In this document: piece by piece, positions 36,974 through 50,002 of the stretch
Layout: each line of letters opens with the position of its first letter
How positions within the stretch are numbered: the first letter of the stretch is position 1
Source: Candidatus Polarisedimenticolia bacterium
Lineage (GTDB): Bacteria > Acidobacteriota > Polarisedimenticolia > Gp22-AA2
DNA: 50,375 bases
Direction of reading: 5' to 3'
Assembly: GCA_036001465.1 (NCBI GenBank)
Contig: DASYUH010000068.1
Span: 1-50,375 of the forward strand
The notes under the pieces: model-generated
Databases searched by the model: none
Told to the model about the DNA's origin: nothing
What the model saw: only the letters and a program-made list of their open reading frames with translations
Position numbers and translations under genes: made by a program

Positions 36974-37002
36974 TTGATTGCCCCCCACCCGCCCTCTATA
37001 AT
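36974..37002 (+). promoter_or_regulatory. Sigma-70 promoter of lepB
   Basis: TTGATT (36974-36979), 17-bp spacer, TATAAT (36997-37002). GGGGAGG at 37014-37020 is the ribosome binding site for ATG 37025. Confidence 0.75.
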
Positions 37003-37024
37003 CCCTGCGCCACGGGGAGGTCTG

Positions 37025-37720
37025 ATGCTGCCTGACGACGCGCCCAAGGGGATCCTGCGGGACTATTTCGAGACGATCGTCACCTGCGTCATTTTCGTGA
37101 TGTTCGCCCGCACGTTCGTGTTCCAGCAGTCGAAGATCCCGACCGGCTCGATGATCCCCACGCTTCTCGTGGGCGACTACATCATGGTCAACAAGTTCGC
37201 GTACGCTCCCGCGTCCTCGTGGCCCCTCCTGGCGCGCGCCGAGAAGGCGATCCTGCCGATCCGCCAGATGCATCGCGGCGACATCGTCGTCTTCAAGTTC
37301 CCCGAGGAGCCGGAGAAGGACTACATCAAGCGCGTCATCGGCCTCCCGGGAGAGGAGATTGAAATCCGCTCCCGGCAGGTGTACATCGACGGCAATCCCC
37401 TCGAGGAGAGCTACAAGGTTCACCGGAATCCCCGGGGGCTCAACTTCGAGCAGGACGACTATCCCAAGACGCGCATCCCGGAGAACTCCCTGTTCTGCAT
37501 GGGAGACAACCGCGACAACAGCAAGGACAGCCGATCGTGGGGCTTCGTGCCTCGCGACTTCGTCAAGGGGCGGGCCTTCATGATCTGGTGGTCCTACGAC
37601 GAGGACCGGGACGCCTGGCAGAGAACCGGCGTCGCCGACAAGATCGGGGGGATCTGGGACAAGATCTCCCACCTGTTCACCAAATCACGCTGGGAGCGGA
37701 GCTTCCGCATCATCAAGTGA
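37025..37720 (+). CDS. lepB: Signal peptidase I
   Basis: A 231-residue membrane protease. It has one N-terminal helix (IVTCVIFVMFARTFVFQ), the catalytic Ser in IPTGSMIPTLLVGDYI (Ser42), the Lys in DYIKRVIGLPGE (Lys102), and FCMGDNRDNSKDSRSWGFV (box E). It cleaves signal peptides on the periplasmic face. The Ser/Lys dyad is complete and the length is typical. The 3' end overlaps the convergent RAYT-like gene by 8 nt. Confidence 0.95.
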   Translation: MLPDDAPKGILRDYFETIVTCVIFVMFARTFVFQQSKIPTGSMIPTLLVGDYIMVNKFAYAPASSWPLLARAEKAILPIRQMHRGDIVVFKFPEEPEKDYIKRVIGLPGEEIEIRSRQVYIDGNPLEESYKVHRNPRGLNFEQDDYPKTRIPENSLFCMGDNRDNSKDSRSWGFVPRDFVKGRAFMIWWSYDEDRDAWQRTGVADKIGGIWDKISHLFTKSRWERSFRIIK

Positions 37721-38231
37721 GGCCTGCCGGCGGGGCGGTCCGGCCGGCGGCGGCGGTCGTGACCGGATCGATTGAAAGCGGAGTCCGCCCCTCTCCCGTG
37801 AAGGCCCTGTAGCTCGACCACCTCCAGTCCCCCGGATCGCGCACCAGCCCCGCCAGCACCGGGTTGTGGTGCAGGAAATCGGCCTTCCGCCTGACGTCCT
37901 CCTCGCCCCGCAGTGGCAGGGTCTGATCGGCGTCCTGCCAGACCAGCCCCAGGCGCCCCAGCCGGTGATTGACTTCCCTGGCATAGCGCGACTTGAGGCG
38001 CTGCACGGTGATGCGCGCCCAGCGCGGATCGGCCCCCCGGCTTGCGACGATCAGACGTACGCGGTCGGGAAGGACGACGTAGGCATGCAGAAGGAAGCCA
38101 AGCCTCAGGCGCAACCCGGCCAGAATGCGGCAGAAGAGCGCCGCCCGGGCGGGGTCCGAGAAGGTCGGCTCGACGCCGAAGGTCCACAAGGTGACGAGGT
38201 AAGCCTGCGACTGCTGCGCCTCTCTGGTCAT
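37713..38231 (-). CDS. RAYT-like (Y1_Tnp) protein lacking HUH and catalytic Tyr residues
   Basis: A 172-residue protein with the REP-associated tyrosine transposase layout: YLVTLWTFGVEP, then FLLHAYVVLPDRVRLIV, then VWQDADQTLPLRGEEDVRRKADFLHHNPVLAGLV and DWRWSSYRAF. Where active RAYTs have PNHVHLL, this one has PDRVRLI (Arg57 and Arg59 replace both HUH His), and the YIxxNPVRAGLV Tyr is Phe119. The catalytic set is therefore gone while the frame and flanking motifs are intact, which suggests a retained DNA-binding role rather than decay. Confidence 0.8.
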   Translation of the reverse strand: MTREAQQSQAYLVTLWTFGVEPTFSDPARAALFCRILAGLRLRLGFLLHAYVVLPDRVRLIVASRGADPRWARITVQRLKSRYAREVNHRLGRLGLVWQDADQTLPLRGEEDVRRKADFLHHNPVLAGLVRDPGDWRWSSYRAFTGEGRTPLSIDPVTTAAAGRTAPPAGLT

Positions 38232-38416: not shown

Positions 38417-40009
38417 TTAGTCGCCGACGGGCACGGCGAGACGCGGCAGGTCCGGGGCGGGCGCCCCGGGGGCGATGATCGCGTGCCGGCCGCGGCCCGG
38501 CTCCCGCTCGGGGAAGTCCTCGCGAAAGTGGGCTCCCCGGCTCTCGCGCCGGCGCAGGGCCGATTCGGCGATGAGACGTCCCACGAAGAGGAGGTTCCTG
38601 GCTTCGACGCCGGCGCGCGTGGCGCGGCGCGGCGCGAGCCCGCGCTCTAGGTCGAGCGTTGTGGCGATCGACCGCTCGAGCCCCGTGGCGTCCCTGAGAA
38701 TCCCCGCCCCTTCCCACAGGACGCGCCGGAGCGCGCCCAGGACCTCGAGGGCGCGCGCCGGATCGATCGACCGCGCCACGTCCGGATCCCCGGCGATCGG
38801 CCCTTCCGGCGGGGGCGCCGGCGCGTCGCCGAGGATGGCCCGGCCGGCCCGGGCTCCGAAGACCAGGCCCTCGAGCAGGGAGTTGCTGGCCAGCCGGTTG
38901 GCGCCGTGCACTCCCGTGCAGGCCGCCTCCCCCGCCGCATACAGGCCCGGAATCGACGTGCGCCCCCACAGGTCGGTCTTGACGCCGCCCATCATGTAGT
39001 GCGCCGCCGGAGTCACCGGAATACGGTCCCGTCCGATGTCGAGACCGTGGCGGGCGCAGGTCGCGGCGATGGTGGGAAATCGCCGGCGCACGAAGTCCGG
39101 GTCCAGATGGCGCATGCTGAGATAGACGGAGGGATGACGCGTGCGGCGCATCTCGGCGACGATGCCGCGCGCCACGATGTCACGCGGCGCCAGGTCGCCG
39201 CGCGCGTCGACGCGGGTCATGAACGGCTCCCCCGCCGCGTTCTCGAGGCGGCCCCCCTCCCCGCGCATCGCTTCCGACAGGAGAAACCGCGGCACGCCCG
39301 GGAGCTGAAGCGCCGTGGGATGGAACTGCACGAACTCCATGTCCATCATCTCGGCGCCGGCGCGGTAGGCCATCGCCATGCCGTCGCCCGTGGCCTGCGG
39401 CGGATTGGTGGTCTCGAGATAGGCCTGCCCGGCCCCGCCGGTCGCCAGGACCACCGCCCGGGCGCGCAGCAGGATGGAGCGGCCCTCGGTCTCGTCGAGA
39501 GCCAGGACCCCGACGCAGCGCCCGCCCGCCAGGACCAGATCGATGGAGAAGGTGCGCTCGACCAGGGTGATGCCGTGCTCTCCGGAGGCCCTGGCGACCA
39601 GGGCGCGCGCGATCTCGCGCCCGGTCGAATCACCCTGGGCGCGCAGGATGCGCCTCTTGCTGTGCGCCGCCTCCCGCGCCAGGGCGATGCGGGTCCCCTC
39701 CCGGTCGAAGCGCGCCCCCCAGTCGATCAGCTCGAGCGCGAGCGCCGGCCCTTCCTCGACCAGCACCCGCACCGCCCCCTCGTGGCACAGGCCGTCTCCC
39801 GCCTCGATCGTGTCCTGGAAGTGGAGGGAGACCTCGTCGTCGTCCGACAGGACCGCCGCCAGGCCGCCCTGGGCCTTGTCGGTCGCCGAGTCGGTGGGAG
39901 AGTCCTTGGTGAGAACGGCGATCCGCCCGCCCCCGCCGGCGATCTCGATGGCGGCGCGCAGGCCGGCGATGCCGCTGCCGGCCACCACGGTATCGAAAAT
40001 CGGATCCAC
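38417..40009 (-). CDS. nadB: L-aspartate oxidase
   Basis: A 530-residue flavoenzyme that oxidises L-aspartate to iminoaspartate in NAD synthesis. It has the FAD dinucleotide motif VVAGSGIAGLRAAIE (GxGxxG at residues 11-16), TDSATDKAQGGLAAVL, the succinate-dehydrogenase-like DMEFVQFHPTAL and FLLSEAMRGEGGRL, TPAAHYMMGGVKTD and GLYAAGEAACTGVHGANRLASNSLLEGLVFG. All are at usual positions. GTG 40009 is chosen because it lies 4-5 nt after the expected transcription start of a weak divergent promoter (TACACT, 40025-40020). nadA and nadC are not in the window. Confidence 0.94.
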   Translation of the reverse strand: MDPIFDTVVAGSGIAGLRAAIEIAGGGGRIAVLTKDSPTDSATDKAQGGLAAVLSDDDEVSLHFQDTIEAGDGLCHEGAVRVLVEEGPALALELIDWGARFDREGTRIALAREAAHSKRRILRAQGDSTGREIARALVARASGEHGITLVERTFSIDLVLAGGRCVGVLALDETEGRSILLRARAVVLATGGAGQAYLETTNPPQATGDGMAMAYRAGAEMMDMEFVQFHPTALQLPGVPRFLLSEAMRGEGGRLENAAGEPFMTRVDARGDLAPRDIVARGIVAEMRRTRHPSVYLSMRHLDPDFVRRRFPTIAATCARHGLDIGRDRIPVTPAAHYMMGGVKTDLWGRTSIPGLYAAGEAACTGVHGANRLASNSLLEGLVFGARAGRAILGDAPAPPPEGPIAGDPDVARSIDPARALEVLGALRRVLWEGAGILRDATGLERSIATTLDLERGLAPRRATRAGVEARNLLFVGRLIAESALRRRESRGAHFREDFPEREPGRGRHAIIAPGAPAPDLPRLAVPVGD

Positions 40010-40041
40010 GGTGGCGCCGAGTGTAATCGAATTCCGTTTCC

Positions 40042-40070
40042 TTGACAGGCCCCGGGGGCGAACTGATAAT
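40042..40070 (+). promoter_or_regulatory. Sigma-70 promoter of the DUF4388 operon
   Basis: TTGACA (40042-40047), 17-bp spacer, GATAAT (40065-40070). It overlaps the weak nadB promoter on the other strand (-35 CTGTCA 40048-40043, -10 TACACT 40025-40020), so the two may interfere. Confidence 0.75.
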
Positions 40071-40104
40071 GACCCTTCAGGCGCGGAGACCCGGCGGATC
40101 CGAC

Positions 40105-41946
40105 ATGCAGGACTTCCCATCCCAGGGACCGATCGACGGCCTCTTCCTGCCGCGGCTCGTCGCCTCGCTTCACCTCGATGAGTTCGAGGGAGCGCTGCGT
40201 CTCACCTTTCCGGACGCCACGAAGATCCTCTATTTCAAGCGGGGCGAGATCGCCTCGGCGGCCAGCAATGCCGAGCCGGATCGGCTGGCCAACATCCTGA
40301 TCCAGGAAGGCCGGCTGGGCGCCGAGCAGCTCGACCTGGCGCGCAACAGCATCCCGCCGGGAGCGTCCCTGGGAAAGACCCTCATCGACATGGGGTTCCT
40401 GAGCCCCTCCGAGCTGCTTCAGGGGGCGCGTCGGCAGGTGCGCCTGATCGTCGTCTCCTGCTTCCGGTCCACCTCCGGAGGGTACGAAATGGTGCCGGGA
40501 CCTCTGCCCCCTGAGGTGACCTCTCTCGGCCTCAACACGCGGCGCCTCGTCTTCGATTGCCTGCAGGAGGCGGGCGACCGGGCCGCCGTGATTCGCGAGA
40601 TCGGCTCGATGGAATCGGTCTATCGGCCGACCGATCGCCTCGCCCTGGCCCTGTCGGGGCTGAAGCTCGATGCGGAGACCGACCGCGTCGCGCGCCTGCT
40701 GGACGGCACCTCCACGCTGCGCGACCTCAGCAGCCGGACGGCGCTCGATGACTTCACCGTGGGCAAGATCGTCCTGGCCCTCGACCTCCTAAGGGCCGCC
40801 GAGCGAGTCGCCCCCGCGGCCGGCGAGGTGGCGGCACGTCCCGCCCCGGCCATCGCGGTCGCCGCGGCGGAGCCGGCGACGCGAGCCGGCGGGCGCGGGC
40901 GCACGATCCCGGTCGAGACCGACCCGGAGGAGGAGCCGCCGGAGCCGGCGCCGGTGGAGTCGGCCGATGCGACGGACGACGGTGAAGTCGTGATCATCGA
41001 GGAGGACGCGGGAGGTGACGCGGCGCCCCCCGGTCTCGAGCCCGCGCCGGCTCCGCCCCGGCCCTCCGAGCCGCCTCGGGCTGCCGCGGCAACCCCGGCG
41101 GAGCCCACCCCGTTTCCCGCGGAGGAGCTCCCCGCCTTTGCCAGTCCGCTTCCCGGTGAGTCGGCGACCGTCGAGCCGCAGTGGCAGGTCGACCCGGAGA
41201 CCGGCGAGCGGGTCCATGTAGGGCCGATCGAGATGACCTTCGACGGGAAGGTCGGCGGGCGTCACGGCGAAACTCGTGGGCTGTCGCGTTTCATGACGGC
41301 GGCCGTGGGCGTGGCCGTGGTGGCGGCCGCCACCATCGCGTTCCTGATCCTGCGCCGCGGGACGTCCGCTCCGGAACCCCCCGGGGAGGCGGCTGAGGCC
41401 GGCACAATCGCCTCGGCGCCACCCCCGGCGGCCCCTCCCGACGCGCAGCCGCCCGCGACGCCTCCGGCTGAACCCGAGCGGCCGGCCCGGGATGACTCCG
41501 CGACCGCGCCGGTTCCGGAGACCGTGGCAGCCGCTCCGTCCGCACCTCCGACCCCGAGGCCCCGCCCCGCGCGTGCCGGGGCCGCCGTGGCGGACGATCC
41601 CGGCTACGCCCGGGCGCGCCAGCGCCTGGACCAGGACGACGCCGCCGGGGCGGCCGGCCTGTTCAGGGAGGTGCTGTCCGCCCGGCGGCCGGGCGCCGTG
41701 AGCCTGCAGCTGATGATCGCCTGCCAGGAGGACACGGTGAAGGGGGCGCGCCGGCGTGCCGGTGAGGGGAGCGAGTTGTACATCCTTCCCTACACGCTCA
41801 AGGGTCGTTCGTGCTACCGCGTTCTCTGGGGTCTGTACGAGAGCGCCGAGGACGCCCGGGCGGCGGTTCCCACACTTCCGGCCGGATTGAGCGAGGGAAC
41901 CCATCCGATCACCGTGTCCGTGGCGCGCCTCCTCCCTGCGGAATAA
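40105..41946 (+). CDS. DUF4388 (PATAN) domain membrane protein with C-terminal SPOR-like domain
   Basis: A 613-residue protein. The N-terminal DUF4388 domain (GLFLPRLVASLHLDEFEGALRLTFPDATKILYFKRGEIASAAS) is of the kind linked to two-component and gliding regulators in Myxococcota. Next come helical DUF4388-associated segments (LGKTLIDMGFLSPSELLQ, LDGTSTLRDLSSRTALDDF), a long Pro/Ala/Glu-rich linker (residues about 255-390), a membrane helix near 396-415, and a C-terminal SPOR-like domain (YILPYTLKGRSCYRVLWGLYESAEDARAAVPTLP). It may connect a cytoplasmic signalling domain to the peptidoglycan. ATG 40105 is chosen because the promoter lies over the earlier ATG at 40069. Confidence 0.72.
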   Translation: MQDFPSQGPIDGLFLPRLVASLHLDEFEGALRLTFPDATKILYFKRGEIASAASNAEPDRLANILIQEGRLGAEQLDLARNSIPPGASLGKTLIDMGFLSPSELLQGARRQVRLIVVSCFRSTSGGYEMVPGPLPPEVTSLGLNTRRLVFDCLQEAGDRAAVIREIGSMESVYRPTDRLALALSGLKLDAETDRVARLLDGTSTLRDLSSRTALDDFTVGKIVLALDLLRAAERVAPAAGEVAARPAPAIAVAAAEPATRAGGRGRTIPVETDPEEEPPEPAPVESADATDDGEVVIIEEDAGGDAAPPGLEPAPAPPRPSEPPRAAAATPAEPTPFPAEELPAFASPLPGESATVEPQWQVDPETGERVHVGPIEMTFDGKVGGRHGETRGLSRFMTAAVGVAVVAAATIAFLILRRGTSAPEPPGEAAEAGTIASAPPPAAPPDAQPPATPPAEPERPARDDSATAPVPETVAAAPSAPPTPRPRPARAGAAVADDPGYARARQRLDQDDAAGAAGLFREVLSARRPGAVSLQLMIACQEDTVKGARRRAGEGSELYILPYTLKGRSCYRVLWGLYESAEDARAAVPTLPAGLSEGTHPITVSVARLLPAE

Positions 41947-41948
41947 GG

Positions 41949-43370
41949 ATGCCCCCGCGTCTCGTCGGTCCCGCGCTCCTCGTGCTGCTCGTCCTGCCGT
42001 GGCCTTGCGGCTCGGCGCGTGCCGACATCATCCATCTGAAAAACGGCGGGAAGATCGTCGCCGACTCCTGGGAGGAGCGGGGCGACGTCCTGATCGTCGT
42101 CCAGGGGAGCGGTCGAATCACGGTCCCGCGGGCGGACATCCTGCGCGTCGAGACCACCCCTCCCGGACCTCCCGCGTCGGACCCGGCCCCCCGGCCCGGA
42201 CCCGCAGGTCCGCCGGGATCTCCGGCCCCGCCGGCGACCGCCGCGAAGAGCGGCATCGACCAGATGAGCGACGACGAGATCGCCGAAGCCATCACCGCGC
42301 TGAAGCGGCGCATCGACGACTATCCCCTGGCGCGCGAGGAGAACACGCGCCGTCTCGTGGCGCTCCTCGATCATCTCGGCGGGCGGGCGTACAAGGCGCG
42401 GCAGTTCGACACCGCGGTCAGCCGATTTCGCGAGGCGCTCGGCTACGACCCGAAGGACGCCGGCGCGCAGCTCGGCCTGGCCGCGGCCTATTTCCGGCAG
42501 GACCAGGACATCTTCGCGCGCTCGACGCTGGAGCGGGCGCTCCTGGATCATCCGGACCATCCCGCGCTGCACGCCCTGCTCGGCGACGTGTACAACAGCC
42601 AGGAGCGCACCGAGGAAGCGCTTCTGGAATGGCGAAAGGCCTATGCGCTCAAGCCCGATCCCTCCCTGAAGGAGAAGATCGACAAACTGGCTCGGGAGCG
42701 CTCCATCGACGGGGACTACCGGCAGTCGGAGGCGGCGCACTTCACCCTGAGGTACGACGGACAGCGGGCCGGGCCCGACCTGGGCAGCCAGATCCTGGAC
42801 TATCTGGAAAGCCAGTTTCGCCCGCTCGAGTCGCGCTTCGATCACTATCCGCTGCAGCCGATCGTGGTCATCCTCTATCCGCAGAAGCAGTTCTACGAGG
42901 CGACGCAGGCGGGGGCCGACGTCGGCGGGCTCTATGACGGCAAGATCCGGGTGCCGAGCGGCGGGTTGAAGCAGATCGACGCCGAGGCCCGTCGCGTGCT
43001 CCTGCACGAGCTCGCGCACGCCTTCATCGCCGGCAAGAGCCGGGGCACGGCGCCCCGGTGGCTGCACGAGGGGCTGGCGCAGTCGATCGAAGGCCGGACG
43101 ACGCCGACCGCCACGGGGGCCGCCCTGGCCCGTGAGTACCAGAATCCGGGCGGCCGGGAATCCTGGGGCCAGGCGTTTTCCTATCCCTCCGCCCTGTGCT
43201 TCGTCGAGTGGCTGGATGGGCGCATCGGCTTCCCTGCGCTGGTCGACGTCCTCGAACAGATGGGCCGAGGAGTGACTCCCGAGGCCGCCTTCGAGCAGGT
43301 CACCCGCTATTCGCTCAAGGAGTTGCGCCAGGCCTGGGGAGAGGCCCTGGTCCGGAAATACTTGCAATAA
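41949..43370 (+). CDS. Secreted TPR protein with gluzincin-type (peptidase MA-like) metalloprotease domain
   Basis: A 473-residue protein with a signal peptide (LLVLLVLPWPCGSARA), a short N-terminal beta domain (DIIHLKNGGKIVADSWEERGDVLIV), a Pro-rich linker, TPR repeats (AYKARQFDTAVSRFREALGYDP onward) and a C-terminal metallopeptidase domain. The zinc motif is HELAH at residues 353-357, and WLHEGLAQ supplies the third ligand, as in peptidase_MA family proteins. The gene begins 2 nt after the preceding stop, so it is in the same operon. Substrate unknown. Confidence 0.8.
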   Translation: MPPRLVGPALLVLLVLPWPCGSARADIIHLKNGGKIVADSWEERGDVLIVVQGSGRITVPRADILRVETTPPGPPASDPAPRPGPAGPPGSPAPPATAAKSGIDQMSDDEIAEAITALKRRIDDYPLAREENTRRLVALLDHLGGRAYKARQFDTAVSRFREALGYDPKDAGAQLGLAAAYFRQDQDIFARSTLERALLDHPDHPALHALLGDVYNSQERTEEALLEWRKAYALKPDPSLKEKIDKLARERSIDGDYRQSEAAHFTLRYDGQRAGPDLGSQILDYLESQFRPLESRFDHYPLQPIVVILYPQKQFYEATQAGADVGGLYDGKIRVPSGGLKQIDAEARRVLLHELAHAFIAGKSRGTAPRWLHEGLAQSIEGRTTPTATGAALAREYQNPGGRESWGQAFSYPSALCFVEWLDGRIGFPALVDVLEQMGRGVTPEAAFEQVTRYSLKELRQAWGEALVRKYLQ

Positions 43371-43453
43371 TCCCGTCCACGCCTCAAGTTATTCCCGGAC
43401 TATCAGATGCCGGGCCCGGGTGTGTCGGCCCAGGCGGGAGGGATGTTGGACCG

Positions 43454-45214
43454 ATGAACGGGAGCCTGGCGCGGCGTTCGCCGAGCGATGTCCTGGCCGA
43501 GGTGCTGCGCCGGCAGGCGTCCGGCATCATGCGGCTCAAAAACGCCGCCACGACCCGGCAGCTGTTCATCGACGCCGGCGTGATGATCCGCTTCGCCGTC
43601 AGCACCCTCCCCAGCGAGAGCATCACCGGCCTGTTCCGCGACAAGGGGGGCGTCACCGAGGCCCAGGTGAAGCATGCCACGGCCGTCAAGACGGCCGACG
43701 AGCTTCTCGGCACGGCCCTCGTCCGGACCGGCGCTCTGACGAAGGAGGCGCTGGCGGGACTGACCCGGGAACACATCCACCGCGTGACCCTGGGCGCCCT
43801 GGCGACGCGCGATGGAGAGTTCGAGTTCCAGGCCGGCGCCCTGCCCTTCCGCGAGCAGCTCGACGGCGGTCTCGGCAGCCCCGAGATTCTTCTGGAGTGG
43901 GCGCGGGCCTTCCCCGAAATCGACTGGATTCGCAGGCGGCTCGGGCAGAGCGAGGCGCGCGTGCAGCTCTCGAGGCGCCCGCCGGAAGGCTATCAGAAGG
44001 TGCCGCTCAACCCCGCCGAGGGGTTCATCATGTCCCGCGTCGACGGCAGCTCGAGCGTCGGCGACATCATCTCTCTCAGCCCCATGGGGGAGGAGAACAC
44101 CCTGCGCGCCCTGTTCGGCCTGGCCCTCGCCGGCATCCTGGAGATGCCCGACGGCGCGGCCGAGATCCCGCTGCCGCCCGCCACGTCGACGTCCCCTGGG
44201 CCGGTTCCAAGGACCGCTCCCGCGGTGCCGCATGCGCCCGCGGCGCGCCCCGCCACCGTTCCTGCCGCGGCCGCGGGAGCCGCCCCCGCGCCCGTCATGG
44301 CGGCGCGACCGCCGGCCGTCGCGGCCGTGCGGACTCCGACGAACGGCGGCGCGACCGCGCCCCCCGCCCAGGCAGCCGCTCCCGCGGCTCCGCGCTCCCC
44401 GGCCAAGGGACCGGCTCCGGCGGCCGCACCCAGGCCCGCATCCCGCCCGCCGGCGTCCCGGCCGGCCATGGCACCGCGGCGAGTCACCTCGGTCACCGAG
44501 CGCGTGCGCCCCACAGCCAGCCCGGACCTCGAGGCCGAGATGCTGCAGCGCTTCGATCAGCTGCGCGAGCAGGACCTCTACCAGGTGCTCGGGGTGATCG
44601 CGACCGCCAACGCCGACGAAGTCCGCCGCGCGTACTATGCGCTCGCCAAGAAGTTCCATCCCGACAAGTTCATGCGCGAGGATGCGAAGACGAAGGCGGA
44701 GAAGGTGTTCGCCCACATCACCGAGGCCTATTCGACCCTCACGAACCCCGAGACCCGCACGAGGTACGACGAGGACCAGGCCCTGCGCAAATCGTCGCGG
44801 GAGCCGGAGAAGAAGGTCGACCCGGGGGCCGTGGCGCACATCAATTTCAGGCACGGCAAGGACATGTTCGACAAGGGGAAGCTCGGGGAAGCCATCACCT
44901 TCCTGCAGAACGCCTGCGACCAGGACCCGTCGAAGGCGGAGCATTTCCATTACCTGGCGATCGCCCAGAGCAAGAATCCCCGCTGGAAAAAGGACGCCGA
45001 GGAGAACTTCCTGAAGGCGATCGAGAAGGACCCGATGAACGCCGAGATCTACGCCCATCTCGGCTCGCTCTACGCCCGCGGCGGCATGCACAGCAAGGCG
45101 CGCGACATGTTCAAGAAGGCCCTGCAATGGGACCCCGCCCAGCAGGAGGCCTCCGAAGGGCTGGCGCAGCTCGAAGAAGGCAAGAAGGGCCTCCTCGGGA
45201 TGTTCAAGAAGTAA
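43454..45214 (+). CDS. DUF4388-DnaJ-TPR fusion protein
   Basis: A 586-residue cytoplasmic protein. It has an N-terminal DUF4388-like domain (residues about 1-240, including SGIMRLKNAATTRQLFIDAGVMI) and a Pro/Ala-rich linker (about 240-360). A J-domain follows (residues about 370-440) with the catalytic HPD at 402-404 in KKFHPDKFM and NPETRTRYD. TPR repeats (about 460-580, AHINFRHGKDMFDKGKLGEAITFLQNACDQDP) close the protein. The J-domain implies recruitment of a DnaK-type chaperone. No DnaK gene is in the window. The ATG at 43454 has GGGAGGG about 10 nt upstream. Confidence 0.85.
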   Translation: MNGSLARRSPSDVLAEVLRRQASGIMRLKNAATTRQLFIDAGVMIRFAVSTLPSESITGLFRDKGGVTEAQVKHATAVKTADELLGTALVRTGALTKEALAGLTREHIHRVTLGALATRDGEFEFQAGALPFREQLDGGLGSPEILLEWARAFPEIDWIRRRLGQSEARVQLSRRPPEGYQKVPLNPAEGFIMSRVDGSSSVGDIISLSPMGEENTLRALFGLALAGILEMPDGAAEIPLPPATSTSPGPVPRTAPAVPHAPAARPATVPAAAAGAAPAPVMAARPPAVAAVRTPTNGGATAPPAQAAAPAAPRSPAKGPAPAAAPRPASRPPASRPAMAPRRVTSVTERVRPTASPDLEAEMLQRFDQLREQDLYQVLGVIATANADEVRRAYYALAKKFHPDKFMREDAKTKAEKVFAHITEAYSTLTNPETRTRYDEDQALRKSSREPEKKVDPGAVAHINFRHGKDMFDKGKLGEAITFLQNACDQDPSKAEHFHYLAIAQSKNPRWKKDAEENFLKAIEKDPMNAEIYAHLGSLYARGGMHSKARDMFKKALQWDPAQQEASEGLAQLEEGKKGLLGMFKK

Positions 45215-45228
45215 CCCTTTCCCGCGCG

Positions 45229-45256
45229 TTGACTTCCGGTTCGCCGTCCCTAGATT
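45229..45256 (+). promoter_or_regulatory. Sigma-70 promoter of the Ser/Thr kinase gene
   Basis: TTGACT (45229-45234), 16-bp spacer, TAGATT (45251-45256). GTG 45263 is 6 nt after the -10 box. Confidence 0.5.
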
Positions 45257-45262
45257 TGCAGG

Positions 45263-46876
45263 GTGGGACCGCCGGTCCCGATGACAATTCTGTCATCCGT
45301 CCGGGGCCCTGGCGCGGGGGTCGCCGCCAGCCAGATGGATCCAGGTGTGAAGGACGGAGCCGCGGCCCCGGAGACACCGGAGCGTTTCGGCCCGTACAAG
45401 GTCGAAGATCGAATCGGCGCCGGCGGAATGGGGATCGTCTACCGGGCGCTCGACGAGGCGCTGCAGCGTCACGTGGCCCTCAAGACCCTCCTCCCCGCTC
45501 TCGCCGCCGATCCCGAGTTCGTCGCCCGCTTCAAGCGCGAGGCGCAATCGGCCGCGGCGCTCAACCACCCGAACATCACGCAGATCTACACCATCGGCCA
45601 GGAGGGGACCGTTCCCTACTTCGCCATGGAGCTGATCCACGGCCGGTCACTCGAGGCGATCATCAAGGAGAAGGGGGCCGTCGGGCCGGCGGAGGCGACC
45701 GGCCACGTCCTCCAGGCCGCCAGGGGACTCCGGCACGCGGCCCAGAAAAAGCTGATCCACCGCGACATCAAGCCAAGTAACCTCATGCTCACCGAAGACG
45801 GCGTCGTCAAGATCACCGATTTCGGCCTGGCCAAGGCAGCGCGGTGCGAAACCCAGCTCACCGCCACCGGCGAGGTGCTCGGATCTCCCGGATACATCTC
45901 GCCGGAGCAGGCGCAGGGGGCGACGCTCGACGTCCGTTCGGACATCTACTCGCTCGGCGCGGCCTTCTATCACCTGGTCACCGGCCGGCTGCCGTTCGAG
46001 GCGCCGACGCCGGTGGCTATGATCGTCAAGCACATGAGCGAACCGCTGCGCTCGCCGCGTGCCCTGAACCCGGCGGTCCCGTACCCGGTCGCATCCGCCA
46101 TTCAGAAGATGATGGCCAAGCGCCCCGGCGAGCGCTTCCAGGACTACGACGCCCTGATCCGCGAGCTGGAGCGGGCGCTCGCGACGATCGGCCCGGAAGC
46201 CTCGGCCCAGGCCCCCGGGGTCGTCCAGGCCGGGAGACACCCCTGGTCCGGCATGACGGGAGCCGAAATGCGCGGACGCGCCGGCCGCCTGCCCGCGTCG
46301 GGGACGGAGAGCCCGCCTCGCACGCGTGGAGTGTCCTGGATTCCGGCGATTCTCGCCATCCTCCTCGGCGGCCTCGTGGTCGCCGGGGTGGTGAAGAACC
46401 GCCGGGACGCGGCCCGGGAAGCGGGACAGCCGGAGCCCATCCGGGTGGCGGCCAGCCTTCCCGACGCGTCCTCGGGGGCCGGCGCGGGATCCCGGGCCCC
46501 CGTGACCTTCAGCAATCGTGCCGGCGACGCCCGGATCGGAGCCGTGTCCCGCGAGGGCGGCCTCGAGGATCGCCTGCGCGAGCGCTTCCAAAGGCGCAAT
46601 CGCGCCAACCTCTCCTTCATCGCCAACGATCACTCGGTCCTCCCGGACGGTCGCCTCAAGGTGTTCGGGCGGATCCAGAACAACGGCGGCAACACCGCCT
46701 CGCAGGCGCGCGTGCGGGTGCGGATTCTCCTGGACGACGGCAGCGTGGCGGTGGAGGGTGAAACGCCGCTCGACCCGCCGATCGTCCCGCCCCAGGGGAC
46801 CGCCACCTTCGAGCTGCCCCTCGATTACACGGGTCCCGTGGGCACGATCAAGGCCGAGATCGTCTGGGTCGAATAG
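45263..46876 (+). CDS. Membrane Ser/Thr protein kinase with C-terminal FxLYD-like domain
   Basis: A 537-residue PknB-type kinase. It has the glycine loop IGAGGMGIVYRA, VALKTL, the catalytic HRDIKPSNLML (HRD at 166-168), DFG (Asp186), and the activation segment GSPGYISPEQAQG. A membrane helix (ILAILLGGLVVAGVV, near 359-378) precedes a periplasmic beta domain (FIANDHSVLPDGRLKVFGRIQNNGGNTASQARVRVRILLDDGS) of FxLYD type. All catalytic residues are conserved, so it should be active. GTG 45263 would be leaderless; ATG 45281 or ATG 45335 are alternatives. It follows the DUF4388-DnaJ gene by 48 nt. Confidence 0.9.
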   Translation: MGPPVPMTILSSVRGPGAGVAASQMDPGVKDGAAAPETPERFGPYKVEDRIGAGGMGIVYRALDEALQRHVALKTLLPALAADPEFVARFKREAQSAAALNHPNITQIYTIGQEGTVPYFAMELIHGRSLEAIIKEKGAVGPAEATGHVLQAARGLRHAAQKKLIHRDIKPSNLMLTEDGVVKITDFGLAKAARCETQLTATGEVLGSPGYISPEQAQGATLDVRSDIYSLGAAFYHLVTGRLPFEAPTPVAMIVKHMSEPLRSPRALNPAVPYPVASAIQKMMAKRPGERFQDYDALIRELERALATIGPEASAQAPGVVQAGRHPWSGMTGAEMRGRAGRLPASGTESPPRTRGVSWIPAILAILLGGLVVAGVVKNRRDAAREAGQPEPIRVAASLPDASSGAGAGSRAPVTFSNRAGDARIGAVSREGGLEDRLRERFQRRNRANLSFIANDHSVLPDGRLKVFGRIQNNGGNTASQARVRVRILLDDGSVAVEGETPLDPPIVPPQGTATFELPLDYTGPVGTIKAEIVWVE

Positions 46877-46899
46877 CGTCCCACCGCCGCGGGCTGGGA

Positions 46900-46905
46900 T
46901 ATGAT
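46900..46905 (+). promoter_or_regulatory. Possible -10 box of the CRTAC1-type gene
   Basis: TATGAT, 9 nt before the ATG at 46915; no clear -35 box. Confidence 0.35.
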
Positions 46906-46914
46906 CCTTCCTCC

Positions 46915-49284
46915 ATGCGCAGATCCGGGAGCCCCTCCGAGCATCCGCTGTTATCCGTGTCCGTGGCGATCGTCCTGGTCGCGTCGGCGCTGACCGGGTA
47001 CGTGACGCGGGGAGCGCCCCCCGAGGGGGGCCCCGCCGCGGGGAAAGCAACCGGAACGGCCGCCGCGTCCCCCGCCGCCGGCCAGCCGTCCGCCGGCACG
47101 CGCAAAATGGCGGAACGCCTCCAGCGCATCGTGGCCGAGACGGATCCCGGCCGCAATCCATTCATGAACGCGGCGCGCGTCAAGCTCCTCGAGCAGATGA
47201 TCCAGAACCGGGGCGGCGACGCGCCCCCCCAGATGAAGATGGAGCTGGCGACCCAGCTCCTGAACTCGGGCCGCAACGACGACGCCATCGCGATGCTGGA
47301 TCGCCTGGAGGAGATGCTGCGGCCGTCCGCGGGCGCCCCCCCGTCGCGACTGTGGTTCGAGCTGCGCATCCGCCAGGCGGTGGCCCAGCTGCGGCGCGCC
47401 GAGACCGACAACTGCATCGAGCGCCACAACCCCCGCTCCTGCCTGTTCCCGGTCCACGGCTCGGGAATCCACGCGGAGAAGCGCGGGTCCCGGGCGGCCG
47501 TGACCATCCTCGAGTCGGTCTTGGCGGTGAATCCCGATCACCGGCAGGCCCGCTGGCTCCTGAACATCGCCTACATGATCCTGGGGGAGTACCCGCAGGG
47601 CGTGCCGGCGCGCTGGCTGCTGCCGCCGAAGCTGTTCGAATCGGACTACGACATCGGGCGCTTTCCCGACATCGCCGCGAGGCCGGGCCTGGACGTGGAC
47701 GACCTGGCCGGTGGAACGATCGCCGACGATTTCGACGGGGACGGATACCTGGATCTGTTCGTCTCGTCCGCCGGGTTGCAGACCCAGATCCGCTACTTCC
47801 GGAGCAACGCCGACGGGACGTTCACCGATAAGACGGCCGACGCCGGGCTCACCGGGCTGGTCGGCGGGCTGAACATCATGCAGACCGACTACGACAATGA
47901 CGGCCGCCTCGACGTCCTGGTCCTGCGAGGCGGCTGGATGGGAGCGGCGGGGCGCTACCCGAAGTCCCTGCTGCACAACGACGGCGGCGGCAGGTTCTCG
48001 GATGTCACGGAGGAGGCGGGCCTGCTCAGCTATCATCCGTCACAGACCGCCGTCTGGCGCGATTTCGACGGGGACGGCTGGCTCGACCTGTTCGTCGGCA
48101 ACGAGACCTCCGAGGGCTCCCAGAACCCGTGCGAGCTGTTCCGCAACAACGGCGACGGCACGTTCACCGAATGCGCCGCGGAGGCGGGCGTGACGGTCAA
48201 CGAGTACGTGAAGGGGGTCGCCGGCGGCGATTTCGACAACGACGGGCGGCCCGATCTCTACGTCTCGGTGCGCGGCCGTCCGAATCACCTGTTCCGCAAC
48301 GTCGGGGCCTACGCCGAGCCGCCCGCGGCCGGCGCCCTGCGCCGGTCCCCGGCCGCCCGCGGCTCCTGGGCCGGGCGCTTCACCGACGTGGCGGTGAAGG
48401 CCGGCGTGACCGAGCCGTCCGTCAGCTTCCCCACCTGGTTCTTCGACTACGACAACGACGGCTGGGAGGACATCATGGTCACCGGCTACGGCATGCAGGA
48501 TGTCGGCGACATCGCCGCGGACTACATGGGCCGCGCGACGACGGCACAGAAAGCCCGGCTCTACCACAACAACGGCGACGGCACCTTCACCAACGTCAGC
48601 CGCGCCCTGGGCGTGAGCCGGGTGATGCATGCCATGGGCGCCAACTTCGGCGACCTCGACAACGACGGCTGGCTCGACTTCTACGTCGGCACGGGCGACC
48701 CGGATTTTGCCACCCTCATTCCCAGCCGCATGTTCCGCAACGACGGCGGCAAGCGCTTCCAGGAAGTCACCACCTCCGGCGGCTTCGGCATGCTGCAGAA
48801 GGGCCACGGCATCGCCTTCGGCGACCTCGACAACGACGGCGACCAGGATGTTTTCTCCAAGGTCGGCGGGGCGGTCGAGACCGACAATTTCACCAGCCAG
48901 CTCTTCCTCAATCCCGGCCATGGCAATCACTGGCTGAAGGTGCAGCTCGAAGGCGTGAAGACCAACCGCCTGGCGATCGGCGCGCGCGTGCGCGTGGTCG
49001 TGCGCGAGGGCGGGACGGAGCGGTCGATCTACCGCACGGTCAATTCCGGCGCGAGCTTCGGCGCCAGCCCGCTGCGCGCGGAGGTGGGGCTCGGCCAGGC
49101 GACCGAGGTGCTGCGCGTCGAGGTGTTCTGGCCCGTCACCGGTGTCACGCAGGTCGTGACCGGCCTGGAGCCGGACCACGCCTACTTCCTCCGCGAGGGC
49201 CAGGCGGCCGCGGTTCCCGTGAGGTTGAAGACCTTCACCATCCCGACCGAGCCGGTGGCCGGCCATCATCATCACCACCCCTAA
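46915..49284 (+). CDS. CRTAC1-type FG-GAP/VCBS repeat protein with ASPIC/UnbV domain
   Basis: A 789-residue secreted protein. An N-terminal anchor (LLSVSVAIVLVASALTGYVTRG) is followed by a helical TPR-like part, then seven calcium-binding FG-GAP loops of the DxDxDG type (DFDGDGYLDLF near residue 273, DYDNDGRLDVL, DFDGDGWLDLF, DFDNDGRPDLY, DYDNDGWEDIM, DLDNDGWLDFY, DLDNDGDQDVF). The C-terminal ASPIC/UnbV domain has HWLKVQLEGVKTNRLAIGARVRV. The protein ends with a natural five-His run. Extracellular adhesion or recognition role inferred. In its last third, glycine codons change sharply to GGC. Confidence 0.87.
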   Translation: MRRSGSPSEHPLLSVSVAIVLVASALTGYVTRGAPPEGGPAAGKATGTAAASPAAGQPSAGTRKMAERLQRIVAETDPGRNPFMNAARVKLLEQMIQNRGGDAPPQMKMELATQLLNSGRNDDAIAMLDRLEEMLRPSAGAPPSRLWFELRIRQAVAQLRRAETDNCIERHNPRSCLFPVHGSGIHAEKRGSRAAVTILESVLAVNPDHRQARWLLNIAYMILGEYPQGVPARWLLPPKLFESDYDIGRFPDIAARPGLDVDDLAGGTIADDFDGDGYLDLFVSSAGLQTQIRYFRSNADGTFTDKTADAGLTGLVGGLNIMQTDYDNDGRLDVLVLRGGWMGAAGRYPKSLLHNDGGGRFSDVTEEAGLLSYHPSQTAVWRDFDGDGWLDLFVGNETSEGSQNPCELFRNNGDGTFTECAAEAGVTVNEYVKGVAGGDFDNDGRPDLYVSVRGRPNHLFRNVGAYAEPPAAGALRRSPAARGSWAGRFTDVAVKAGVTEPSVSFPTWFFDYDNDGWEDIMVTGYGMQDVGDIAADYMGRATTAQKARLYHNNGDGTFTNVSRALGVSRVMHAMGANFGDLDNDGWLDFYVGTGDPDFATLIPSRMFRNDGGKRFQEVTTSGGFGMLQKGHGIAFGDLDNDGDQDVFSKVGGAVETDNFTSQLFLNPGHGNHWLKVQLEGVKTNRLAIGARVRVVVREGGTERSIYRTVNSGASFGASPLRAEVGLGQATEVLRVEVFWPVTGVTQVVTGLEPDHAYFLREGQAAAVPVRLKTFTIPTEPVAGHHHHHP

Positions 49285-49297
49285 TCCCTGTTCCGCC

Positions 49298-50002
49298 ATG
49301 AAGACCTGGCTGCTCCCGGTCCTGTTGCTTGCGACCGTCGCGGCCCGCGCCGCCGAACCGGCCGTCCCCGCGCCCGCGACGGCCACGGCCCCGCGGGAAG
49401 CCTATCTTTCGCTCGGCTCGTCCTTCGCCCGCGACTCCCGTCTCGCCGAACTCGGCTGGAACGACGCGCAGTTCGAGGCCTTCATCGAGGGCTTGCGCGC
49501 GGCCTTCCGGGGCCGGCCTTATGCGAGCAGCAATGCGACGGAGCAGTTGCAGGCGGCGATCGGCCAGCGGGTGCAGGAGCTGGCCCAGCGGGAGATGCGC
49601 AACTATTTCGCCCACCCCAAACGGTTGCAGGAATATATGAAGTCGCGGGCCAAGGAGCTGCAGCTCGAAATGGCCGACAGCGGCATGGCCTACGGCCTCA
49701 TGCCGGGGCGGGGAACCACGCGGCCCGCACCGGAGGACACGGTGGTGCTTTCATTCCAGGCGGTCGCCGCCGACGGGCAGACGGAACTGCCGGCGCTGGC
49801 CGTCAATCGCAAGCGGGTTCGCGTGAGCGAGCTGATCCCCGGCCTGGCCGAGGGCGTCCAGTTGATGACCGCGGGAGGAACCGGGCTTTTCATCCTGCCT
49901 CCCGAACTTTCCTTCAACGACGGCACCTGGCCCCAGGGGGTCGAAGCGGGCACGCCGATCATCTTCACGGTCGCCTTGCACGAGGTGATCGTCGCGCAGT
50001 GA
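49298..50002 (+). CDS. FKBP-type peptidyl-prolyl isomerase-like secreted protein
   Basis: A 234-residue protein with a signal peptide (MKTWLLPVLLLATVAARAA), an N-terminal helical dimerisation part (FARDSRLAELGWNDAQFEAFIEGLRAAFRG), then an FKBP domain (EDTVVLSFQAVAADGQTELPAL, VSELIPGLAEGVQLMTAGGTGLFILPPELSFNDGTW, GTPIIFTVALHEV). The usual IPGWxEG and LAYG positions are partly altered, so isomerase activity is uncertain. It begins 13 nt after the CRTAC1-type gene and leads directly into a response regulator gene. The overall sequence style reminds me of Verrucomicrobiota (Opitutaceae) FkpA-type proteins. Confidence 0.75.
   Translation: MKTWLLPVLLLATVAARAAEPAVPAPATATAPREAYLSLGSSFARDSRLAELGWNDAQFEAFIEGLRAAFRGRPYASSNATEQLQAAIGQRVQELAQREMRNYFAHPKRLQEYMKSRAKELQLEMADSGMAYGLMPGRGTTRPAPEDTVVLSFQAVAADGQTELPALAVNRKRVRVSELIPGLAEGVQLMTAGGTGLFILPPELSFNDGTWPQGVEAGTPIIFTVALHEVIVAQ

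Follow-up and report, generated by a model that had tools for sequence, protein, structure and literature searches.

Within one acidobacterial class, 20 genomes belonging to nine families keep three neighbouring genes in the same order beside lepB. They code for a DUF4388/PATAN protein with an SPOR-like domain (g1), an exported TPR metallopeptidase (g2) and a DUF4388/PATAN protein with a J-domain and TPRs (g3), and are followed by the gene of a membrane Ser/Thr kinase (g4) solely in the order that includes the genome studied here. We infer, with a probability of roughly 0.38, that g1–g3, together with g4 in this one order, may form an envelope-spanning module acting on the type IV pilus motor or its polar partner. 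All parts belong to known families, and the conserved combination is undescribed as far as our literature search reached.

Gene block and conserved neighbourhood

The window (the whole stretch of 50,375 nt that was analysed) is contig C68 of the source genome, which measures 4.58 Mb, and contains the block. All five domain architectures named in the original prediction (g1–g5) are present at the following coordinates, given with the flanking features.

36974–37720, + strand: lepB (signal peptidase I), conserved flank outside the module (orthologue neighbourhoods)
38417–40120, − strand: nadB, divergent conserved flank outside the module (orthologue neighbourhoods)
40042–40070, + strand: sigma-70-like promoter TTGACA-N17-GATAAT in the divergent nadB/g1 region, ending 35 bp before g1
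40105–41946, + strand: g1, DUF4388/PATAN–TM–SPOR-like protein (Pfam and predicted structure)
40282–40425, + strand: MshEN-like tandem helical motif inserted in DUF4388 of g1, with degenerate c-di-GMP residues (profile and structure overlay)
41949–43370, + strand: g2, exported TPR–Peptidase MA-type metallopeptidase with HExxH...WLHEGLAQ (profiles and orthologue alignment)
43454–45214, + strand: g3, DUF4388/PATAN–J-domain–TPR protein (Pfam and orthologues)
45281–46876, + strand: g4, membrane Hanks-type Ser/Thr kinase (Pfam and orthologues)
46915–49284, + strand: g5, FG-GAP/UnbV_ASPIC (CRTAC1-like) protein, outside the conserved unit
49298–50002, + strand: g6, FKBP-type peptidyl-prolyl isomerase, outside the conserved unit and in the same insertion as g5

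The genes g1–g4 share one strand and are separated by 2 bp (g1/g2), 83 bp (g2/g3) and 66 bp (g3/g4). The promoter before g1 is near-consensus, matching 11 of 12 consensus positions, and two promoter-like sites were found in the nadB/g1 region against 0.5 expected. Judged from its orthologues, nadB probably starts near 40000. A RAYT/IS200-type (REP-associated) transposase-like gene was recognised by eye in the lepB/nadB gap (window 37713–38230, − strand; YLVTLWTFGVEP...LHAYVVLPDRVRLIV), and a gene of the same type lies at the same place in a genome of the same genus (G001, L036:3477-4013).

A tblastn comparison of the window proteins with fetched regions showed the arrangement lepB–nadB (divergent)–g1–g2–g3–g4 throughout the genus and family of the window and also in the order's second family, with ~31–91% identity and with the loci of four genomes (G002, G004, G005, and G006) interrupted by contig ends. 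HMMs built from the orthologues also identified g1–g2–g3 in G013, G014, G015, G016, G017, G018, G063, G123, and G148, and the g4 kinase was not found with the trio in any of these nine. Across the class, lepB is usually upstream of the trio and pgsA/miaA/SpoIID usually downstream. Acidobacteria group 22 and groundwater MAGs are the closest named relatives in which the locus occurs, and a g1–g2 pair with a convergent g3 is also present in G044, outside the class. The order of the block is kept down to 30–40% protein identity across families, which is more than chance. Neighbourhood in related genomes had been expected of all five genes; it holds for g1–g4 (class-wide for the trio, in the window's order for g4) but not for g5, which is never adjacent elsewhere. 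The conserved unit is g1–g4, not g1–g5.

Of 149 genomes sampled from the phylum, 69 match the g3 profile at E ≤ 1e-30, and the full g3-like proteins are mostly without g1/g2 in the fetched regions. This wide occurrence of DUF4388-J-TPR proteins without g1/g2 counts against the module proposed below.

Domain architecture of the four proteins

The DUF4388 domain of g1 (40123–40572), predicted to lie on the cytoplasmic side, matches Pfam PF14332 with 51.8 bits against a cut-off of 25. One TM helix (~41287–41355) and an SPOR-like domain with two invariant cysteines (~41695–41931) complete the protein. The SPOR model PF05036 scores 19.6 bits, under the gathering cut-off of 21, and the predicted model shows a β-α-β-β-α-β order for the C-terminal region. 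The top PDB match for this low-confidence g1 model in Foldseek was the SPOR domain of DamX (2lfv, E 2.6e-3, probability 1.00); the SPOR domain of RlpA was also matched (probability 0.98), and the VIA-align rows for the C-terminal part are other ferredoxin-like folds. The pLDDT values of the g1 and g3 models are 47 and 56, respectively, both low. Short forms of g1, consisting of the TM helix and the SPOR-like domain only, are found in G013, G015, G016, G063, G123, and G148. Since these six sister genomes are without the PATAN half, the module can do without a PATAN domain in g1. All nine orthologues compared have the cysteine pair, and the short forms retain it, which is consistent with a periplasmic disulphide. 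Like the SPOR proteins of the DamX/FtsN type, g1 is a bitopic membrane protein with a C-terminal SPOR fold, as far as prediction goes, but it differs from them in its PATAN N-terminus, the conserved cysteine pair and the Pfam SPOR score just below the cut-off.

A signal peptide recognised by eye, TPRs and a Peptidase_MA_2 match of 20.7 bits (cut-off 32.4) characterise g2. Its HExxH motif and the downstream Glu (HExxH…WLxEG) are kept in all orthologues read.

The DUF4388 domain of g3 (43460–43909) scores 41.5 bits against the cut-off of 25, and this part of the predicted model has mostly low pLDDT. It is followed by a J domain (44573–44770; DnaJ PF00226, 66.4 bits) with the HPD motif, which is intact in every trio member read, and by TPRs (~44822–45172; TPR_11, 47.5 bits). 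No DnaJ zinc-finger or C-terminal domain was found in g3 by the Pfam search, and g3 is accordingly a class III J-protein, probably a soluble one. At their C-termini, g3 and its orthologues carry a few basic and hydrophobic residues (KGLLGMFKK in the window, KGILKGIFGG and GGRFRRLFRK in others), perhaps a site of membrane or partner contact. A second DUF4388-J-like-TPR protein of the source genome (contig C7, L063:7851-9527) has HPS in place of HPD and is therefore probably unable to stimulate Hsp70. We found no literature joining the PATAN domain with DnaJ, and PATAN-DnaJ fusions may already be listed in the original PATAN work or by Han et al. (2022).

For g4, the kinase domain (45395–46138) scores 157.5 bits with Pkinase, and its signatures K68, HRDIKPSN and DFG are invariant in eight orthologues. 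One TM helix (~46337–46396, by eye) leads to a C-terminal extracytoplasmic domain of beta type. The protein had been called an FxLYD-type kinase; a kinase with an extracytoplasmic domain it is, but the FxLYD assignment was made by eye and no Pfam or NCBIfam model matched. Like the PASTA/Stk1 (PknB) kinases, g4 joins a Hanks kinase through a TM segment to an extracytoplasmic domain, and it reaches 338 bits with the PASTA kinase model NF033483 (cut-off 450), but it has a single FxLYD-like domain, as seen by eye, instead of PASTA repeats. The g4 orthologues of the second family begin with a CxxC zinc-ribbon-like stretch (L046:10986-12671 and L044:2570-4201) that is absent from the window's kinase.

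The DUF4388 insertion and the MshEN module

DUF4388, with its helical insertion, is what we take to be the PATAN domain of Makarova's 2006 paper, the title of which reportedly describes an alpha-helical insertion in PATAN. Under the name DUF4388 itself, the literature search found a single paper, which deals with nitrite reductase. The insertion of DUF4388 comprises 53 residues and is homologous to MshEN, the c-di-GMP receptor of pilus motors. In all ten DUF4388 domains tested, the MshEN model NF053729 matches one common stretch of some 50 residues, with three of the domains above the cut-off of 38 bits (49–61 bits); g1 and g3 score 25.1 and 18.0 bits, below it. A profile built from 22 DUF4388 members hits PilF (7.2e-24), MshE (4.7e-12) and PilB chains through exactly the MshEN stretch, and gave no significant match beyond pilus-motor/MshE chains. 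Among the 13 places matched by NF053729 in the source genome, eight are DUF4388 loci and most of the remaining ones lie inside frames of T2SSE-family ATPases; C4:80745 was assigned to neither group. Residues 56–114 of g1, taken from the low-confidence model, overlay on MshE (5htl) with Z 5.5 and rmsd 2.3 Å over 58 residues at 40% identity. The relaxed tandem regex of Wang gave one full tandem match in 93 DUF4388 domains, as the linker is frequently a residue shorter, and profile tests were used instead.

The same tandem 24-residue helical motif thus makes up the DUF4388 insertion and the MshEN of MshE, PilB, and PilF. In DUF4388, however, it is inserted in another domain rather than placed N-terminal to an ATPase, and in g1 and g3 the arginines and glutamines that hold c-di-GMP are largely lost. 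Wang et al. (2016) list many MshEN proteins, 22 of them from M. xanthus, and do not use the word PATAN (PMC5013675). Three papers in our literature search use both terms, PATAN and MshEN, and do not connect them; the link may therefore be implicit in earlier tables. A cyanobacterial PATAN was sought in the plasmid collection and not found.

The ligand site was scored at the R9, Q32, R38 and Q61-type positions of MshEN. All 11 g1 orthologues have Ser in place of the second-motif Arg (R38), and those of the second family have His in place of the first-motif Arg. Of 13 g3 orthologues, 12 have lost R9, all 13 R38, and 12 the final Gln (Q61). Other DUF4388 domains have kept the Arg at the first and second places in 34/67 and 41/67, respectively. 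The lost ligand residues disfavour c-di-GMP binding by g1 and g3, which probably do not bind it, and we therefore read these as protein-docking versions of PATAN. PATAN domains with an intact motif are present in the source genome, e.g., on contigs C7, C13, and C40, and the paralogues on C7 and C13 (62 and 57 bits with NF053729) may bind c-di-GMP. With the insertion identified as MshEN, c-di-GMP binding by intact PATAN and its pairing with the PilB N-domain become directly testable.

Possible function of the module

PATAN response regulators of Synechocystis contact the pilus motor PilB (PMC10519157, PMC9090330; see also PMC7690835). PATAN genes also occur near mglA/mglB, and PATAN has been linked to MglA/MglB polarity (PMC4316618). 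The M. xanthus PATAN proteins MXAN_3211 and MXAN_4965 are among candidates linked to type IV pilus regulators (PMC11580455). The Synechocystis PATAN-CheY regulators PixG, PixE, and LsiR share PATAN with g1 and g3 and are tied to type IV pili, but they have a receiver domain and a role in phototaxis, whereas the PATAN of g1 and g3 is fused to TM-SPOR or J-TPR parts and comes with no receiver. MXAN_3211 and MXAN_4965 are PATAN proteins like g1 and g3, but they are uncharacterised and have not been reported with such a gene set.

Five genomes from four families have a gene for a PilT/PilU-family ATPase near the trio, among pgsA and miaA (L047, L080, L096, L097, and L098). Those of G016 and G013 score 412–413 bits with TIGR01420 (cut-off 319), and relatives of the protein were found with phmmer in G063, G123, and G148. 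No pilus gene is adjacent to the block in the window's genome or elsewhere in its order. The source genome carries PilB-like and PilT-like genes side by side on C86 and ~18 GGDEF proteins; its only MglA candidate is a weak Arf-family match. As PATAN elsewhere binds PilB and a PilT/PilU-family gene is found in the neighbourhood in sister families, the pilus motor or its partner suggests itself as the client. The other flanks are housekeeping genes, so the neighbourhood alone says little about the process.

In the module that we propose, g1 would sit in the inner membrane with its SPOR-like head bound to peptidoglycan and thereby place the module at division sites or poles. The exported g2 might cut or scaffold periplasmic partners. 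On the cytoplasmic side, g3 would dock through PATAN and TPRs, recruit DnaK (Hsp70) and remodel a client, most likely the type IV pilus motor or its polar partner. The PATAN domains of g1 and g3 would offer docking surfaces, which may pair with intact PATAN or with the MshEN modules of the motor, and g4 could add phospho-control where it is present. The layout, as read from the predicted domains, fits the earlier suggestion of envelope state as input and chaperone recruitment as output. The PATAN identity of DUF4388, the MshEN nature of its insertion and the PilT/PilU neighbourhood were no part of that suggestion. A more specific mechanism, which we think unlikely, is that PATAN, with its inserted copy of the motor's c-di-GMP module, controls the motor by hetero-pairing with MshEN; g1–g4 would then be a peptidoglycan-anchored scaffold, with ligand-blind PATANs and a J-protein that places, loads or disassembles the motor.

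Three other explanations were considered. DamX and other SPOR proteins work at the septum, and the SPOR fold predicted for g1 could also point to a module for cell wall and division that has nothing to do with type IV pili. The SPOR domain of g1 would follow the denuded septal glycan made by the SpoIID-SPOR protein, g2 and g4 would regulate peptidoglycan remodelling, and g3 would assemble or disassemble a divisome-linked complex. A SPOR-SpoIID protein is indeed encoded in the same conserved neighbourhood, and the kinase domain of g4 scores best against the PknB/PASTA family. However, fts, mur and penicillin-binding genes were all missing from the neighbourhood as seen here, the PilT/PilU-family gene is there in five genomes, and PATAN is elsewhere tied to pili and to MglA/MglB polarity (PMC4316618); we consider a division role somewhat doubtful. 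The combination of a J-domain with invariant HPD, a protease, a kinase and the signal peptidase LepB in one neighbourhood would also suit envelope proteostasis, with the outer domain of g4 and the TPR-peptidase of g2 detecting damaged periplasmic proteins and phosphorylated g3/g1 recruiting DnaK to cytoplasmic precursors. This is improbable given that the block holds no sigma factor, DegP, Skp or SurA, that most families of the class have the trio without the kinase, and that the FKBP (g6) belongs to the insertion and not to the block.

The genes might, finally, be co-transcribed and functionally unlinked members of a stable housekeeping neighbourhood (lepB, nadB, pgsA, hfq, and miaA). The flanks are core genes that keep their own order too, and neither the kinase nor the PATAN half of g1 is present throughout. 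Yet g1-g2-g3 remain contiguous while the genes around them change (PilT, MutS2-like, NYN, kinase), and a genome from outside the class (L102) again has the g1-g2 pair with an adjoining g3, which makes this explanation the least likely of those considered. The conserved trio offers a concrete candidate module in a poorly studied class, with residues that can be mutated: HPD, HExxH, the SPOR surface and the kinase Asp.

Probable insertion downstream of the kinase gene

The genes g5 (CRTAC1), g6 (FKBP), and g7 (response regulator) were ruled out as members of the unit, none of them being next to the block in any relative. Neither g5 nor g6 is beside the block in any other fetched locus, and the insertion carrying them was seen only in the source genome. 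pgsA comes after g4 in G001 and G003, ~30–50 bp away and on the opposite strand. The pgsA–miaA–DUF4388–SpoIID genes of the source genome are found on contig C108, and at the end of this contig pgsA adjoins another CRTAC1/FG-GAP gene, with 60% identity to g5 (L060:11337-12662), which probably marks the far edge of the insertion. As this second g5-like gene abuts pgsA, the g5–g7 segment looks inserted between g4 and pgsA. In the simplest reading, the space from g4 to pgsA would hold g5–g7 as well as the second copy, and the assembly would have broken at this repeat.

Another DUF4388 protein, with a C-terminal region of its own, is encoded beside miaA/SpoIID (L036:14899-16008 and L060:8255-9424), so that up to three DUF4388 genes belong to the ancestral neighbourhood.
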